A stretch of DNA of 23,650 bases from a virus. The stretch lies in the IMG/VR virus record IMGVR_UViG_3300037502_001206, positions 1-23,650 of that record, one strand, 5' to 3'. Positions 2,345-5,943 of the stretch are shown in pieces. How positions within the stretch are numbered: the first letter of the stretch is position 1; each line of letters starts with the position of its first letter. The notes below the pieces were generated by a model, which was not told the origin of the DNA, did no database searches, and saw nothing but the letters and a program-made list of their open reading frames with translations. A program made the position numbers and the translations under genes.

Positions 2345-2590
2345 ATGAATAGTCCGAAAGAAAAAGCATTAGAGTTAGTTGAGAAATATAAAATTATTAT
2401 AGCAGACCATGTAGTTGATATGAAGATTATTTATGGCACTTTGACTAATAAATTAGCTAAACAATGTGCATTAATAGCAGTTGATGAATTAATAAGTATA
2501 TCATTACCAAGTAGTGAATTTGGGGGTGTAATTACTAATAATACTACTGAATATTGGAATGATGTAAGAAACGAAATAAATAAATTATGA
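2345..2590 (+). CDS. Conserved-type Bacteroidota phage small protein, 81 aa
   Basis: An 81-residue soluble helical protein. It starts MNSPKEKALELVEKYK, has a central KQCALIAVDELI (about 39-50), and ends YWNDVRNEINKL. In my recollection these three blocks are typical of a small hypothetical family very common in Bacteroidota phages and prophages. The stop overlaps the start of the next gene (ATGA). The role is unknown; it usually sits among early genes, as here. Confidence 0.75.
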   Translation: MNSPKEKALELVEKYKIIIADHVVDMKIIYGTLTNKLAKQCALIAVDELISISLPSSEFGGVITNNTTEYWNDVRNEINKL

Positions 2591-2799
2591 TACACAAACT
2601 ACAACAACTAATAGATCGCAAATCATTTGTAGATAATATGGCAAGGAAGTTACACGTTAAACCTTCAACAATAGAGTATTATTTTAGAACTGAAATACCT
2701 ATTAAAAATAAAGTAATAATTGAAGCTTGTTTAGACTTGCAATTGAAGTTAGATAAAGACTTTAAACAAATAGAAGTTAAGGCTTGGGAGTTGGTTTAA
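2587..2799 (+). CDS. Small helix-turn-helix-like protein, 70 aa
   Basis: A 70-residue protein whose central part, DNMARKLHVKPSTIEYYFRTE (about 16-36), has the helix-turn-helix spacing, with an Ala in the first helix and a V-K-P-S-T turn. It is therefore a candidate regulator of early phage genes. It is translationally coupled to the gene before it (ATGA). Its TAA stop is the TAA of the TAAC boundary that opens the first hairpin spacer of the cassette chain. Confidence 0.65.
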   Translation: MIHKLQQLIDRKSFVDNMARKLHVKPSTIEYYFRTEIPIKNKVIIEACLDLQLKLDKDFKQIEVKAWELV

Positions 2800-2800
2800 C

Positions 2801-2907
2801 GGCACTCAGGTATATGCAGTTTTAAACTAAAATTAAATAAAATGATAACACTTAGAAAATTAGAAGAATTATTTACAGGTAGAAAGCAAAAATTGCATAT
2901 ACCTGAT
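2801..2907. repeat. Hairpin spacer 1 of the cassette chain
   Basis: Opens right after TTTAAC (2795-2800) and closes just before GTTA (2908). CAGGTATATGCA (2807-2818) pairs perfectly over 12 bp with TGCATATACCTG (2894-2905). The intervening 75 nt contain the ATG of the next small reading frame. It is about 107 bp, comparable to long integron attC sites. Confidence 0.6.
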
Positions 2908-3018
2908 GTTAGCAAATCGGTTTGTTTGCTTAACAGAAAATTTATTGAATGTGAGGTACACAGATGTAGCACATACGGTTGTTTGAATTGCGGACAATAC
3001 AAACAAACTGTTTGCTAA
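2842..3018 (+). CDS. Short Cys-rich reading frame across a cassette boundary, 58 aa
   Basis: ATG 2842 opens a 58-codon frame with six Cys residues (28, 37, 42, 47, 50, 58), two of them in CLNC. The N-terminus is basic and helical (MITLRKLEELF). The stop TAA at 3016-3018 is part of the TAAC that ends cassette A. The frame begins in hairpin spacer 1 and crosses the cassette boundary at codon 23, so its N-terminus would come from the spacer. It may be a real small protein or a chance frame on structured DNA; the Cys pairs slightly favour a real one. Confidence 0.4.
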   Translation: MITLRKLEELFTGRKQKLHIPDVSKSVCLLNRKFIECEVHRCSTYGCLNCGQYKQTVC

Positions 3019-3019
3019 C
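2908..3019 (+). mobile_element. Cassette A, bounded by its own inverted repeat
   Basis: The left end GTTAGCAAA-TCG-GTTTGTTT (2908-2927) and the reverse complement of the right end, GTTAGCAAA-CA-GTTTGTTT (3019-3001), agree at 17 positions with a one-base length difference. The segment is only 112 bp. By analogy with integron cassettes the moving unit would also include the following hairpin spacer. Confidence 0.55.
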
Positions 3020-3138
3020 GTATGTGGCTTTAAATCAGTTGCGGAATCGTACCAGTGCCAACAAAGAGAAAAGACGCTTTGTTTTAGTCGAAAGGTCAAA
3101 TAGTACAGCAACGAACTCCGCAATTGTTTAAAACCACT
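3020..3138. repeat. Hairpin spacer 2 of the cassette chain
   Basis: A long nested hairpin. GTGGCTTTAAA (3024-3034) pairs with TTTAAAACCAC (3127-3137) with one mismatch. TTGCGGA (3039-3045) pairs with TCCGCAA (3117-3123). AACAAAG (3060-3066) pairs with CTTTGTT (3077-3083). Unpaired bases between the stems resemble the bulges of folded attC sites. Length 119 bp; no gene inside. Confidence 0.65.
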
Positions 3139-3169
3139 GTTAACAAATGTATTTAAAAAATTAAAGATT

Positions 3170-3484
3170 ATGAATAAAGAAACATTTTTATCTAAAATAA
3201 AAGAAATAGAAATTGACTACTACAACAAAAGAAAAGAAGTAGAAAAACAAAGAATTTCTAAAAGTCCTTTTCAGATTGGCGATAAAGTAAAGGTTTGGTG
3301 GGAAAGTAGAGATTATGGAAAAGATAATTCTATAGCTTTTATTTATAACATTGGAGCAAATAATGGAGATTTTAAGTATTGGTTTAGACGTGTAAAGGTT
3401 GACGGAAAAATTAGTAAACACACTTTAGGCTTTCCAAAGTATACAAAGATTTTAAAAATAGAACATTATGGAGATGAAGATTGA
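3170..3484 (+). CDS. Hypothetical protein of cassette B, 104 aa
   Basis: A 104-residue soluble basic protein. The N-terminus is a charged helix (about 1-28), and the rest reads as beta strands (FQIGDKVKVWW, FKYWFRRVKVDGK). The strand pattern with GDKVKV resembles small SH3-like or KOW-like barrels that bind nucleic acid or protein, but this is only a pattern-level reading. It starts 31 nt after the left boundary of the cassette, like a cassette gene with a short leader. It overlaps the next gene by 17 nt. Confidence 0.65.
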   Translation: MNKETFLSKIKEIEIDYYNKRKEVEKQRISKSPFQIGDKVKVWWESRDYGKDNSIAFIYNIGANNGDFKYWFRRVKVDGKISKHTLGFPKYTKILKIEHYGDED

Positions 3485-3698
3485 TATTAGAGATGTTGAG
3501 TACTCTACAACAGAAAAAAAAGATTTTGTAAAAATGCAAATTACAAGTCAATTAATTTTAAAAATTGGAGATGTAAAAGTAGCTCGTGAAATTAGTAATA
3601 CAGTTTCTATTTTTAAGAAAGATAATCCAGAATTATTAAAACTAATTTTTGACAATAGTAAGATTTCACGAAAGCAATTACCAAAAAGTTCGGAATAA
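3468..3698 (+). CDS. Hypothetical protein of cassette B, 76 aa
   Basis: A 76-residue protein beginning MEMKIDIRDVEYSTTEKKD; an alternative ATG lies two codons later. It is beta-rich in the first half and helical after about residue 45, with a Lys/Ser-rich tail. No domain recognised. It overlaps the preceding gene in another frame, so the two are likely co-translated. The stop lies 10 nt before the cassette's closing TAAC, and a TATATTTG sequence (3699-3706) follows the stop directly. Confidence 0.6.
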   Translation: MEMKIDIRDVEYSTTEKKDFVKMQITSQLILKIGDVKVAREISNTVSIFKKDNPELLKLIFDNSKISRKQLPKSSE

Positions 3699-3711
3699 TA
3701 TATTTGTTAAC

Positions 3712-3828
3712 GTTTTGGGGCTTTGCGAAGGCAAGGATTAGAAGTACAAAAGTTCAATTAAACAACAAATGATGATAGTAGCACAAATGTTCAAATTAGC
3801 ACGAATGCCTTGCTTTTGCAAAACCCCT
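3712..3828. repeat. Hairpin spacer 3 of the cassette chain
   Basis: A 20-position stem, GGGGCTTTGCGAAGGCAAGG (3717-3736) against CCTTGCTTTTGCAAAACCCC (3808-3827), has one mismatch and two G-T pairs. The 71-nt middle shows no gene and only weak further pairing. The left side begins GTTTTG and the right side ends CT before GTTA, as in spacer 4. Length 117 bp. Confidence 0.7.
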
Positions 3829-3908
3829 GTTATAGGCAGTGCATTTTTAGGGTTCAGCTTTCCACCCATTTTAAACGGGAAGTGTTAAATAATAAATAAT
3901 TAAAAAAA

Positions 3909-4304
3909 ATGGCAAAAGATGTTTCAAAACAACAAATCGCAAACCTTATACAAGCCTATAAGCAAGTTGTAAGAGTTGCAAGACAAATGTATGATGATAC
4001 CGTTTTAAAAGATTGGGCATTAAATACACATTCATTACCTGCACAGGAAAAGATAATCGATGCTAAGAAAAAGCTGAAAGATACTTTTTCAATTGATTAT
4101 GATGCTGACACTGCAAAAACAAAGGTAATAAAAGAAGGTAGCAGCGTTGAAGTTTTAGTTGGTCATATGGACGGAATGAAAGGCTCAACTGCAATTATTA
4201 AAAGTTATTCATTGCCCGCAAATATTTCAGATATTACAATGAAAGATGGTATGAAAATGAATAACCACAAATGGTTAACAAATGATGAAGTTAAGTTGAA
4301 ATAG
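3909..4304 (+). CDS. Hypothetical protein of cassette C, 131 aa
   Basis: A 131-residue soluble protein. The first half (1-60) is helical and basic (QQIANLIQAYKQVVRVARQMYDD). The second half (about 75-131) is beta-rich with a VEVLVGHMDGMKGSTAIIKSY stretch that looks like a small barrel, and it ends in LTNDEVKLK. The strand-turn-strand with GMKGSTAII resembles KOW or SH3-like folds that set sizes or bind RNA, but I would not assign it. It begins 80 nt after the cassette's left boundary. Its base composition is slightly less AT-rich than its neighbours. Confidence 0.65.
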   Translation: MAKDVSKQQIANLIQAYKQVVRVARQMYDDTVLKDWALNTHSLPAQEKIIDAKKKLKDTFSIDYDADTAKTKVIKEGSSVEVLVGHMDGMKGSTAIIKSYSLPANISDITMKDGMKMNNHKWLTNDEVKLK

Positions 4305-4355
4305 GAGAATCCGAATGCCTTTAAAATTTCGGAATAATTTTTAAATTTAAACATT

Positions 4356-4424
4356 ATGGGAATGAAACCAGGTATGCCAATGCCAAAACCCAAGCCAAAG
4401 CCTAAACCTAAACCAAAAAAATAG
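4356..4424 (+). CDS. Lys-Pro repeat microprotein, 22 aa
   Basis: A 22-codon frame MGMKPGMPMP followed by alternating Lys-Pro to the end (six consecutive PK/KP steps) and TAG. It sits 51 nt after the preceding stop, with an AT-rich leader like other genes here. A repeat made from consistent CC(A/C/T)AA(A/G) codons with silent third-base variation looks like selected protein sequence rather than a simple DNA repeat. It is too short to be sure. A Lys-Pro peptide would be extended and positively charged. Confidence 0.35.
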   Translation: MGMKPGMPMPKPKPKPKPKPKK

Positions 4425-4438
4425 GTTTTAAATAGGTA

Positions 4439-4466
4439 GCAACCGATTTCGTATGTTTTCGGTTGC
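4439..4466 (+). terminator. Perfect 8-bp hairpin at the end of cassette C
   Basis: GCAACCGA (4439-4446) pairs perfectly with TCGGTTGC (4459-4466) around a 12-nt loop. No T-run follows, so it is a poor intrinsic terminator. The right arm overlaps the cassette's inverted repeat, so the two structures would compete. Confidence 0.35.
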
Positions 4467-4478
4467 ATTGCCTATAAC

Positions 4479-4519
4479 GTTTTGCAGATTGGCGGTCGTT
4501 TTAATGCCGTTAATGTGCT
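4479..4519. repeat. Hairpin spacer 4 of the cassette chain (short)
   Basis: GCAGATTGGCGG (4484-4495) pairs imperfectly with GCCGTTAATGTGC (4506-4518), including two G-T pairs and one mismatch. The whole spacer is 41 bp. With 7 bp on each side the site is about 55 bp, close to the classic 59-base element of integron cassettes. Confidence 0.6.
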
Positions 4520-5247
4520 GTTATAAGCTGGCCGAATTATTAAACTAAAAACTAAAATTGAAATGAAAATATTGAACTTATATTCTGGCATCGGGGGCAA
4601 CAGAAAGTTGTGGGGAAGTGAACACGATATTACCGCAGTAGAATTTGATGGTAAAATAGCAACAATTTATCAAGATTTATACCCTAATGACAAGGTTATT
4701 GTTGGAGATGCTCACCAATATTTATTAGAGCATTATTCGGAGTTTGATTTTATTTGGGCATCACCGCCTTGCCCTACTCATTCAGTAACCAATTTGTTTT
4801 TAAATCCACAAGGAATAGTTAGGTATCCTGATATGGGATTGTATCAAGAAATAATATTGTTAGAGCAGTTTTTTAAAGGTAAATATTGTATTGAAAATGT
4901 AAAATCATATTATGAGCCATTAATAAAACCGCAAATTAGCGGAAGGCATTATTTCTGGGCAAATTTCAAAATACCTAACTTAAAAGTAGAAAAACAAATT
5001 GGTAGAATGAATGGCAAAAAAGCAGATTTAGGCGGTAAGGCACAATTTAAAATTAGGCAAAATAACCTTGATAAATTAGGGTTTGATTTGAGTAAATATG
5101 ATTTTAATGATAAAGATAAATTGTTGCGTAATTGTGTTGCCCCCGAAATTGGAAAGGCAATATTTGAAAGTGCAATGAATATCTATAATGCAAATAATGT
5201 TGAACAGATAGGCTTGTTCGGAGGCGAGAGCTCGGCTTGCTTATAAC
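4520..5247 (+). mobile_element. Cassette D, bounded by its own inverted repeat
   Basis: The left end GTTATAAGCTGGCCGA (4520-4535) matches the reverse complement of the right end (5247-5232), GTTATAAGCAAGCCGA, at 14 of 16 positions. It holds only the cytosine methyltransferase gene, whose stop TAA (5244-5246) is part of the closing TAAC, so the last codons of the gene lie inside the inverted repeat. Confidence 0.65.
4563..5246 (+). CDS. Orphan DNA cytosine-5 methyltransferase
   Basis: Transfers a methyl group from S-adenosylmethionine to carbon 5 of cytosine in DNA. Visible C5-methyltransferase motifs in order: motif I NLYSGIGGN (5-13), an acidic VEFD (26-29), GDA (48-50), the catalytic Pro-Cys SPPC with Cys70, ENV (111-113), GRHYFWANF (127-135) and a motif X-like NCVAPEIGKAI near residue 200. 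At 227 residues it is much shorter than typical enzymes (300-400), with little room for a target recognition domain. No restriction endonuclease is nearby, so the likely role is protection of phage DNA from host restriction, or regulation. The C-terminal GLFGGESSACL is partly encoded by the cassette inverted repeat. Confidence 0.92.
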   Translation: MKILNLYSGIGGNRKLWGSEHDITAVEFDGKIATIYQDLYPNDKVIVGDAHQYLLEHYSEFDFIWASPPCPTHSVTNLFLNPQGIVRYPDMGLYQEIILLEQFFKGKYCIENVKSYYEPLIKPQISGRHYFWANFKIPNLKVEKQIGRMNGKKADLGGKAQFKIRQNNLDKLGFDLSKYDFNDKDKLLRNCVAPEIGKAIFESAMNIYNANNVEQIGLFGGESSACL

Positions 5248-5252
5248 GTTTT

Positions 5253-5270
5253 GCAACTTGTGTTAGTTGC
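5253..5270. repeat. Short hairpin at the decayed end of the cassette chain
   Basis: GCAACT (5253-5258) pairs with AGTTGC (5265-5270) after the TATAACGTTTTG boundary shared with spacer 4. No downstream end matching cassette D's repeat follows, so this looks like a shortened or decayed spacer that closes the chain. Confidence 0.45.
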
Positions 5271-5322
5271 GTGAATTAAAAAATACACTTAACAAAAATT
5301 AACAAACATTAAATTAAAACTT

Positions 5323-5730
5323 ATGAAAACAAACAAAACACATACCGAGCAATTGACACAAGATGCTGTTATGCAATCGGTTTTAAAAGCAAATGATTTG
5401 AGAATTGGTAATTTAATTTTTTATCAGACCGTTGACTTAAACACAGGTAAAAATGTTTTAGAAATTGTTGAAGCAACCGCTAATGATATAAAAACACAAG
5501 AGTTAAAACCTATTTTTTTGCCCATTACCCTAACCGAAGATTGGTTGTTAAAATTTGATTTTTATGTAAGTGATGTTTTTGGTCAAAAGCAATATTTTCT
5601 AAGCGGAATAACTATTTATGTAAACGATGGTAAATTTCAACATTCAGGTTATGATAGAGAAATTAAACATGTTCACGAATTACAAAACTTATATTTCGCT
5701 TTAACGCAACGTGAATTAACTGTTGCATAA
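5323..5730 (+). CDS. Conserved-type phage hypothetical protein, 135 aa
   Basis: A 135-residue soluble protein with the phrases LRIGNLIFY (about 26-34), ITLTEDWLLKFDF (66-78) and IKHVHELQNLYFALTQREL (114-132). I recall this order of phrases from a very common hypothetical family of Bacteroidota phages; its function is unknown. The gene lies after the last clear cassette boundary and its ends lack a matching inverted repeat. A 10-bp direct repeat CGTGAATTAA occurs before it (5270-5279) and near its 3' end (5710-5719). Confidence 0.75.
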   Translation: MKTNKTHTEQLTQDAVMQSVLKANDLRIGNLIFYQTVDLNTGKNVLEIVEATANDIKTQELKPIFLPITLTEDWLLKFDFYVSDVFGQKQYFLSGITIYVNDGKFQHSGYDREIKHVHELQNLYFALTQRELTVA

Positions 5731-5763
5731 CTATTGGCTAACCGCTATAAATGTATTACAATT

Positions 5764-5943
5764 ATGCAGAAATACACAAAAACAAAGGTAATTCGTATAA
5801 CTGATTTGCAACATAAAACACTACAAAAAATGAAAAAATTAAATGTAGATGTTGGTAATTTTATACGATTAGCAATTCAAGAAAAATTAGAGCGTGATAA
5901 ACACGAAATATTAAAACAAAAAAAAGAATATTGCCCTTTTTAA
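5764..5943 (+). CDS. Ribbon-helix-helix-like DNA-binding protein, 59 aa
   Basis: A 59-residue basic protein. TKVIRITDLQHKTLQKMKKL followed by VDVGNFIRLAIQEKLERD fits a ribbon-helix-helix fold: a short strand (KVIRIT) that would pair in a dimer and contact DNA, then two helices separated by a turn. I use ATG 5764; an upstream TTG at 5734 would add ten residues but lies in the terminal repeat of the preceding gene. It is the last rightward early gene and its stop is 3 nt from the end of the convergent leftward gene, so the two strands meet here. Confidence 0.7.
   Translation: MQKYTKTKVIRITDLQHKTLQKMKKLNVDVGNFIRLAIQEKLERDKHEILKQKKEYCPF

Follow-up and report, generated by a model that had tools for sequence, protein, structure and literature searches.

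A five-unit hairpin cassette array in a virus record and its probable place in an integron-like system of Bacteroidota

What kind of element is formed by a chain of short gene-bearing segments, each with ends complementary to one another and each preceded by a hairpin, as it occurs in the virus record IMGVR_UViG_3300037502_001206 of IMG/VR? The whole linear stretch analysed (positions 1 to 23,650, G000, hereafter the window) encodes portal, tape measure and endolysin, and searches of it for tRNA genes, Rfam families and the tyrosine recombinase family PF00589 gave no match. The original prediction, made on this DNA without database searches, took the chain for an integron-style cassette array in a phage without integrase, and this part of it has held up. 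On the evidence given below, the window very probably carries a five-unit cassette array belonging to an integron-like system of Bacteroidota, whose recombinase lacks the insertion (I2) of the integron integrase IntI and whose phage arrays would be shuffled in trans.

A parser for sites in which AACG and GTTA flank complementary arms found five hairpins in the window, each followed by a gene-bearing segment with pairing ends, the last of which closes at 5731. The four units originally counted are real, but a fifth, made of the hairpin at 5248-5368 and the body at 5369-5731, had been missed. The array and its flanks read as follows.

2587..2799, plus strand: fixed left flank gene, 70 aa, with the end ..GAGTTGGTTTAA; the array begins after C2800
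2801..2908, plus strand: hairpin site of unit 1, 108 nt, stem score 17.8 (parser)
2909..3019, plus strand: body of unit 1, TTAGCAAAT..TTTGCTAAC; the open reading frame (ORF) 2842-3018 runs from within the hairpin to the closing box
3020..3139, plus strand: hairpin site of unit 2, 120 nt, stem score 16.8 (parser)
3140..3711, plus strand: body of unit 2; two ORFs (3170-3484, 3468-3698), for neither of which Pfam gives a family above the cut-off
3712..3829, plus strand: hairpin site of unit 3, 118 nt, stem score 16.6 (parser)
3830..4478, plus strand: body of unit 3; ORF 3909-4304, DUF1541 (E 6.8e-8)
4479..4520, plus strand: short hairpin site of unit 4, 42 nt, stem score 10.4 (parser)
4521..5247, plus strand: body of unit 4; ORF 4563-5246, C5 cytosine DNA methyltransferase (PF00145, E 7.7e-7; phrog_363, E 1.2e-15)
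5248..5368, plus strand: hairpin site of unit 5, 121 nt, stem score 14.9 (parser)
5369..5731, plus strand: body of unit 5, TTATGCAAT..TTGCATAAC; ORF 5323-5730 starts in the hairpin (phrog_10066)
5732..5943, plus strand: right flank, an attI-like junction TAAC/TA (here and below the slash marks the boundary) and a small gene (phrog_25647); the array of locus L004 is likewise followed by a small gene

In both of the ORFs 2842-3018 and 5323-5730 the start falls within the hairpin and the stop at the closing box, so that the coding sequence covers most of the unit. A Pfam family was found above the cut-off for 2/6 tested ORFs from the window units.

The pairing of the ends, which had drawn attention to the locus, was confirmed on recounting. 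The segments 2908-3019, 3139-3711, 3829-4478 and 4520-5247 all start with GTTA and end with TAAC, and the start of each, compared without gaps with the reverse complement of its own end, matches at 14/15, 14/15 and 14/16 positions in segments 2 to 4, while in segment 1 the match runs over 9 bases and is then partial. The spacers fold into hairpins as proposed, and their RNA folds are stable. Shuffled sequence does not pair equally well: with a stem score of at least 12 and TAAC required, so that the hairpin at 4479-4520 is not counted, 4 sites are found in the region 2701-5760, whereas 200 dinucleotide shuffles yield 0.02 on average and never more than 1. For 34 of the 36 body types of phages and window (two are cut and were left out, and 5/34 ends, those of last units, had been located by pairing), the own ends score 12.5 on average against 6.6 (sd 1.8) between different bodies. 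The arms of the spacers score 15.7 with their own partner and 7.3 (sd 1.7) when swapped, a contrast which is partly built in because the sites were selected on the score of their own arms.

Related phages supply the evidence that these units move. In a distant blastn search with the window array 42 Flavobacterium phage records match in pieces, no relative in the phage collection spans 80 percent of the array, and with one Flavobacterium phage array as the query 51 records match, many of them near copies. We compared 16 Flavobacterium phage arrays (three from lillamy and at most two from any other named phage), which comprise 9 to 15 units each. All 16, like the window array, start after GAGTTGGTTTAAC, a shorter spacer type (s4) resembling the hairpin of unit 2 precedes the TTAACAAATG body in 16/16, and the right junction TAAC/TACAATATT is fixed in all 14 arrays whose sequence reaches it, with one unit newly placed there. 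Between these flanks we found eight differences in the presence or absence of units, some of them overlapping, with boundaries at TAAC/G, and in 7/8 example pairs both 60-base flanks are identical at 58-60 positions. Moreover, a 439-bp unit lies in the middle of the array in lillamy9-6 and, identical in sequence, at the right end in lillamy9-7, with all four flanks matching at 300/300 positions. The related phages are thus not uniform in gene order; units are cleanly gained, lost and relocated, as shown by these comparisons. The first unit takes 2 forms in the 16 arrays, and the last unit takes 8 in the 14 with a right junction. The flanks are thus shown to be fixed and the right end to be the most variable, as an entry of new units on the right would lead one to expect.

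The same comparisons settle which gene a phage hairpin accompanies. Among 24 recurring body types, more than one upstream spacer type occurs in 3 and more than one downstream spacer type in 9, and because the upstream spacers vary less the hairpin travels with the downstream gene. The original prediction had made the hairpin the trailing site of the preceding gene and had placed the rejoined boundary between G and TTA; both assignments are rejected, since the hairpin leads the following gene and the units are bounded at TAAC/G, to the left of each hairpin. Annotated coding sequences (CDS) of six phages point to the same boundary: with CDS of at least 180 nt, TAAC/G is spanned in 0/69 and TG/TTA in 18/69.

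The linked tyrosine recombinase which the original prediction suggested looking for was found in bacteria. A pattern scan for such sites gave 36 loci in IMG/VR and 31 in the genome collection, 24 of the latter titled as Bacteroidota lineages; 21/31 genome-collection loci contain at least one parsed site, and L071 is the only one of these 21 with a non-Bacteroidota title. In total, sites occur in 31/54 regions around recombinase genes of one distinctive kind, 87 in one polarity and 1 in the other, on the 3' side of the recombinase, and it is thereby shown that hairpins of the phage style stand 3' of this recombinase in bacterial genomes in one polarity. In the first set of 20 recombinase genes, several of which share a genome and several of which end at a contig edge, 13 regions have sites, 29 in one polarity and a single weak 29-nt call in the opposite one, and 29/29 lie 3' of the recombinase and none on the 5' side, despite more 5' sequence having been examined. 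A model built from 12 recombinases matches 92/296 Bacteroidota genomes at E 1e-75; in a second set of 20 regions from that list, picked by length of recombinase and contig and covering almost solely the 3' side, 13 contain sites (41 versus 0 in polarity), and none was found in the five weakest matches. In Flavobacteriaceae, 22/249 genomes match the model at E 1e-125, and 5/14 regions have sites (17 versus 0). Six regions with canonical spirochaete IntI gave 0 and 1 sites in the two polarities; the parser therefore scarcely detects ordinary attC. Thus the cassette element is carried by phages, as was proposed, but the system is not confined to them.

The recombinase itself has the tyrosine-recombinase domain of Pfam. 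Its best-scoring model is NF040815 (XerA-type, ‘site-specific tyrosine recombinase/integron integrase’), which passes its cut-off in 2/4 proteins, while the integron-integrase model TIGR02249 reaches 191.7-215.2 bits against a cut-off of 265, so that 4/4 proteins fall below it. In 26/26 searched genomes, those behind 26 of the 31 pattern loci, TIGR02249 matches weakly and never above the cut-off; a parsed array is not present in all of them and the weak matches include ordinary Xer, and in many of the genomes a longer protein is encoded whose match to the model is split in two by a gap. Aligned with IntI4 (the sequence of the structure), IntI1 and IntI2, the recombinase shows a gap where I2 sits. 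The spacing between the motifs KGxKxR and HxLRH is 64-71 in 29/29 recombinases from site-bearing regions and 64-65 in 18/18 site-less relatives, compared with 105-107 in 15/15 IntI and 72-76 in those 9 of the 11 Xer rows that have both motifs. In a careful unrooted tree, made from 69 rows, a branch supported at 89/89 sets the 45 rows of the new group apart, and the support is 100/100 for IntI and 100/99 for Xer; in a quick tree of 73 rows two more array-less relatives fall outside the new group. The array-region recombinase is therefore a group separate from IntI and without the IntI-specific insertion, and simple Xer modules were rejected on the same tree. A stretch resembling the N-terminal HARP domain was noticed in 2/4 recombinases (P0003 15-44, from L115, and P0004 21-50, from L114), below the Pfam cut-off, and is not used as evidence here; HARP is known from annealing helicases and would suit an enzyme that handles hairpins.

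Two plasmids bear on the distribution of this recombinase. The complete Chryseobacterium plasmid NZ_CP041688.1 (L127 6992-10234) carries a recombinase 58 percent identical to protein P0001, a Crp/Fnr regulator, a RidA family gene and two strong hairpin sites, one of which ends in CAAC instead of TAAC; two weaker site calls elsewhere on it are chance-like. In the Acinetobacter baumannii plasmid NZ_CP104339.1 (L128 5001-7172), a recombinase stretch 46.9 percent identical to P0001, for which the annotated CDS is shorter than the match, lies immediately upstream of tet(X3), and the 10.8 kb examined gave no hairpin site of the kind described here. The arrangement hints that a platform of Bacteroidota underlies the dissemination of tet(X).

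The sites share one plan: AAC-G, typically about 5 unpaired nt, stem, loop, stem, and TG-TTA. An asymmetric internal loop with exactly 5 unpaired nt against 2 opposite is present in 162/285 distinct sites (19/40 in Flavobacterium phages, 60/104 in IMG/VR, 31/46 and 46/82 in two bacterial sets), and the integron core GTTRRRY fits 23/285, in agreement with the earlier remark that the cores of the window lie outside this consensus. The orientation of the genes differs between the two settings. Counted by distinct spacers, with 29 phage and 26 bacterial sites unclassable, the genes are on the AACG..TGTTA strand at 30/30 Flavobacterium phage, 81/85 IMG/VR and 4/4 window sites (115/119 classed in phages), and on the opposite strand at 31/35 and 65/67 sites in the two bacterial sets (96/102 classed). 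The counts are not independent because IMG/VR holds near copies, such as L043, which equals filifjonk9-1 in length and in its array. The hairpin therefore stands before the gene in phages and after it in bacteria, and the bacterial gene sense is the usual one of integrons, provided that crossover takes place at the end used in phages. As an observation apart, in the viral contigs L024, L049 and L053 the phage-type cassettes are interspersed with a few whose genes run in the bacterial sense.

How such units might move can be outlined as follows. Each unit consists of one hairpin recombination site and the following gene, closed by its own TAAC box. The recombinase would take the folded single strand, in which the hairpin is asymmetric, as its substrate and would cut at the C/GTTA end on the reverse strand, and a circular unit would be inserted at the attI-like junction on the right. 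Being without I2, the enzyme must therefore handle hairpins by other means. The family PF00589 was found in none of the nine complete Flavobacterium phages searched, and among 34 records (9/16 phage loci and 25/36 IMG/VR loci) it is absent from 32, with matches in L085 and L086. Because the phages tested have no tyrosine recombinase, we infer that in phages the recombinase of the infected cell acts in trans. Passages of PMC7077304, the paper in which these Flavobacterium phages were described, give 38 lytic phages, 34 of them from strains LMO6 or LMO9, and report a tyrosine recombinase for the temperate phage alone.

Several results weigh against this reading of the array as an integron-like cassette system. 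In 1/8 presence/absence events the right flank matches at 23/60 positions only, and when annotated CDS of any size are counted, TAAC/G is spanned in 9/69 (TG/TTA in 26/69). The body b3/b14 behind spacer s5 and the swaps of spacers before b13 and b23 are not simple moves of units, and that a hairpin moves with a given gene is established for phages only. In bacteria, 23/54 recombinase regions show no site in the main polarity, as judged by a parser tuned to one site type; some of these end at a contig edge, but others (among them the 20-kb L163, L170, L177-L181 and L220-L222) do not, and the Bacteroidota recombinase relatives in L177-L181 have no parsed site within 20 kb each. The distance between the recombinase and the first site ranges from 0.5 to about 9 kb, and the link is therefore regional and not always one between neighbours. 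Nor has the recombinase been seen in a known host of these phages, although the genomes of LMO6 and LMO9 lay outside the search. Furthermore, the inverted gene sense of the phage arrays is not accounted for; the phage array may be read through from the left flank, towards the insertion end.

The absence of a tyrosine recombinase from the phages searched, their isolation on two shared host strains and the recurrence of the spacer families s1, s4, s5 and s6 before different bodies would also agree with ordinary modular exchange, in which lytic phages that infect one cell together redistribute their genes by homologous or annealing recombination at conserved linkers and need no site-specific enzyme. 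Such exchange can spread existing differences and may account for the b3/b14 junction, but the partner spacers at the junctions mostly share just a few bases beside TAAC, the new place of the 439-bp unit shares only ..TATAAC as an evident likeness, and the 87 to 1 polarity beside the bacterial recombinase is not predicted by it; we consider it unlikely as the explanation of the whole. It is likewise improbable that the array is a canonical attC cluster (CALIN) moved by ordinary IntI, although layout, polarity and hairpin style fit, the model NF040815, above its cut-off in 2/4 proteins, bears the name of integron integrase, and passages of PMC9892861 give the Polaribacter phage P12002L a CALIN, one of whose two tested sites, which may or may not be among the present-style sites in P12002L, was recombined by IntI1. 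The array-region recombinases are without the IntI insertion, the TIGR02249 cut-off is missed by the 4/4 proteins and the 26/26 genomes described above, and GTTRRRY is the exception among the sites. That the hairpins are RNA elements (leaders, terminators or processing sites) and their mobility incidental is very improbable: every phage gene has a hairpin in its leader and the RNA folds are stable, but in bacteria the hairpin stands 3' of the gene with which it shares a segment, the window has no Rfam match, and the unit boundaries and the mobility suit a recombination site. A role as RNA only was rejected on the opposite placement in bacteria.

Taken together, a cassette system that would be recombined in trans and as single strands by a tyrosine recombinase of the host remains the reading we prefer for the window. 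Going further, we somewhat favour the view that this system is built on a recombinase lineage without I2, which it either never had or has lost, and that it represents an independent integron-like origin or a living relative of the stage before I2, the lytic phages forming a separate pool of inverted-gene cassettes shuffled by host enzymes. According to passages of Escudero et al. 2016 (PMC4792948), I2 has not been identified elsewhere and its origin poses a chicken-and-egg paradox (I2 before attC, or attC before I2), which recombinases without I2 in regions of attC-like arrays would make testable; a recombinase branch differing from IntI may help explain the origin of integrons. In passages of PMC9668308, on archaeal integrons, the additional domain is termed IntI-specific and necessary, and passages of Smyshlyaev et al. 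(PMC8138268) describe the insertion as incompletely conserved in an integron-like subgroup, so that relatives without I2 have been seen before, with no tie to cassette arrays in those passages. Integrons were listed earlier for Bacteroidota in a part of PMC8618304, and the one complete integron that passages of the IntegronFinder 2.0 survey (PMC9024848) name from a Bacteroidetes species is that of Salinibacter ruber. If our reading is true, much cassette traffic in Bacteroidota would have been missed by searches built on IntI and GTTRRRY sites, and lytic phages would be active carriers, whose cargo includes many genes annotated as DNA methyltransferases. The relocation of a unit between the two isolates lillamy9-6 and lillamy9-7 offers a ready laboratory system.

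Among known systems, a search of the literature outside preprints and supplements yielded no description in which the present system was recognised. One likeness is that of the CALINs in virulent phages (Qi et al. 2023, PMC9892861), which passages of that paper describe as recombinase-less cassette clusters of lytic phages with DNA methyltransferase cargo, including one flavobacterial phage; these passages mention neither a recombinase without I2 nor a rule for the sense of the genes nor a unit relocated from one isolate to another, and Flavobacterium is unnamed in the main text (supplements not covered). In P12002L itself (L131 38038-39241) we observed a DNA methyltransferase gene surrounded by three sites of the style described here. 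The reversed integrons of Spirochaetota, as described in passages of PMC9668308, likewise have an integrase reversed relative to the usual layout, but the spirochaete IntI keep the insertion (spacing 105-106 in 11/11 rows). Xer and elements that use it, such as CTXphi, share a recombinase without I2 and, as proposed here, the service of a host enzyme to a phage hairpin (passages of PMC4792948), whereas here the recombinase gene lies in the region of multi-unit gene arrays and belongs to a separate tree group. With integrons the present system has in common arrays of units with one hairpin site each, a fixed polarity of sites, change chiefly at one end, a proposed crossover beside G/TT on one strand and a tyrosine recombinase encoded in the array region. 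It differs from them in a recombinase of a separate group, without the IntI insertion and with its gene pointing into the array, in cores that seldom read GTTRRRY, in unit ends which pair with one another over 8-9 exact bases in 28/34 bodies, and in the 5-and-2-nt internal loop. In the strict sense based on IntI it is accordingly no integron, with I2 absent, TIGR02249 below the cut-off and GTTRRRY rare. In a wide mechanistic sense it is probably one, in that discrete single-site cassettes move as units in the phages, and a recombinase gene, absent from the phage, stands by an array with fixed site polarity in the bacteria.

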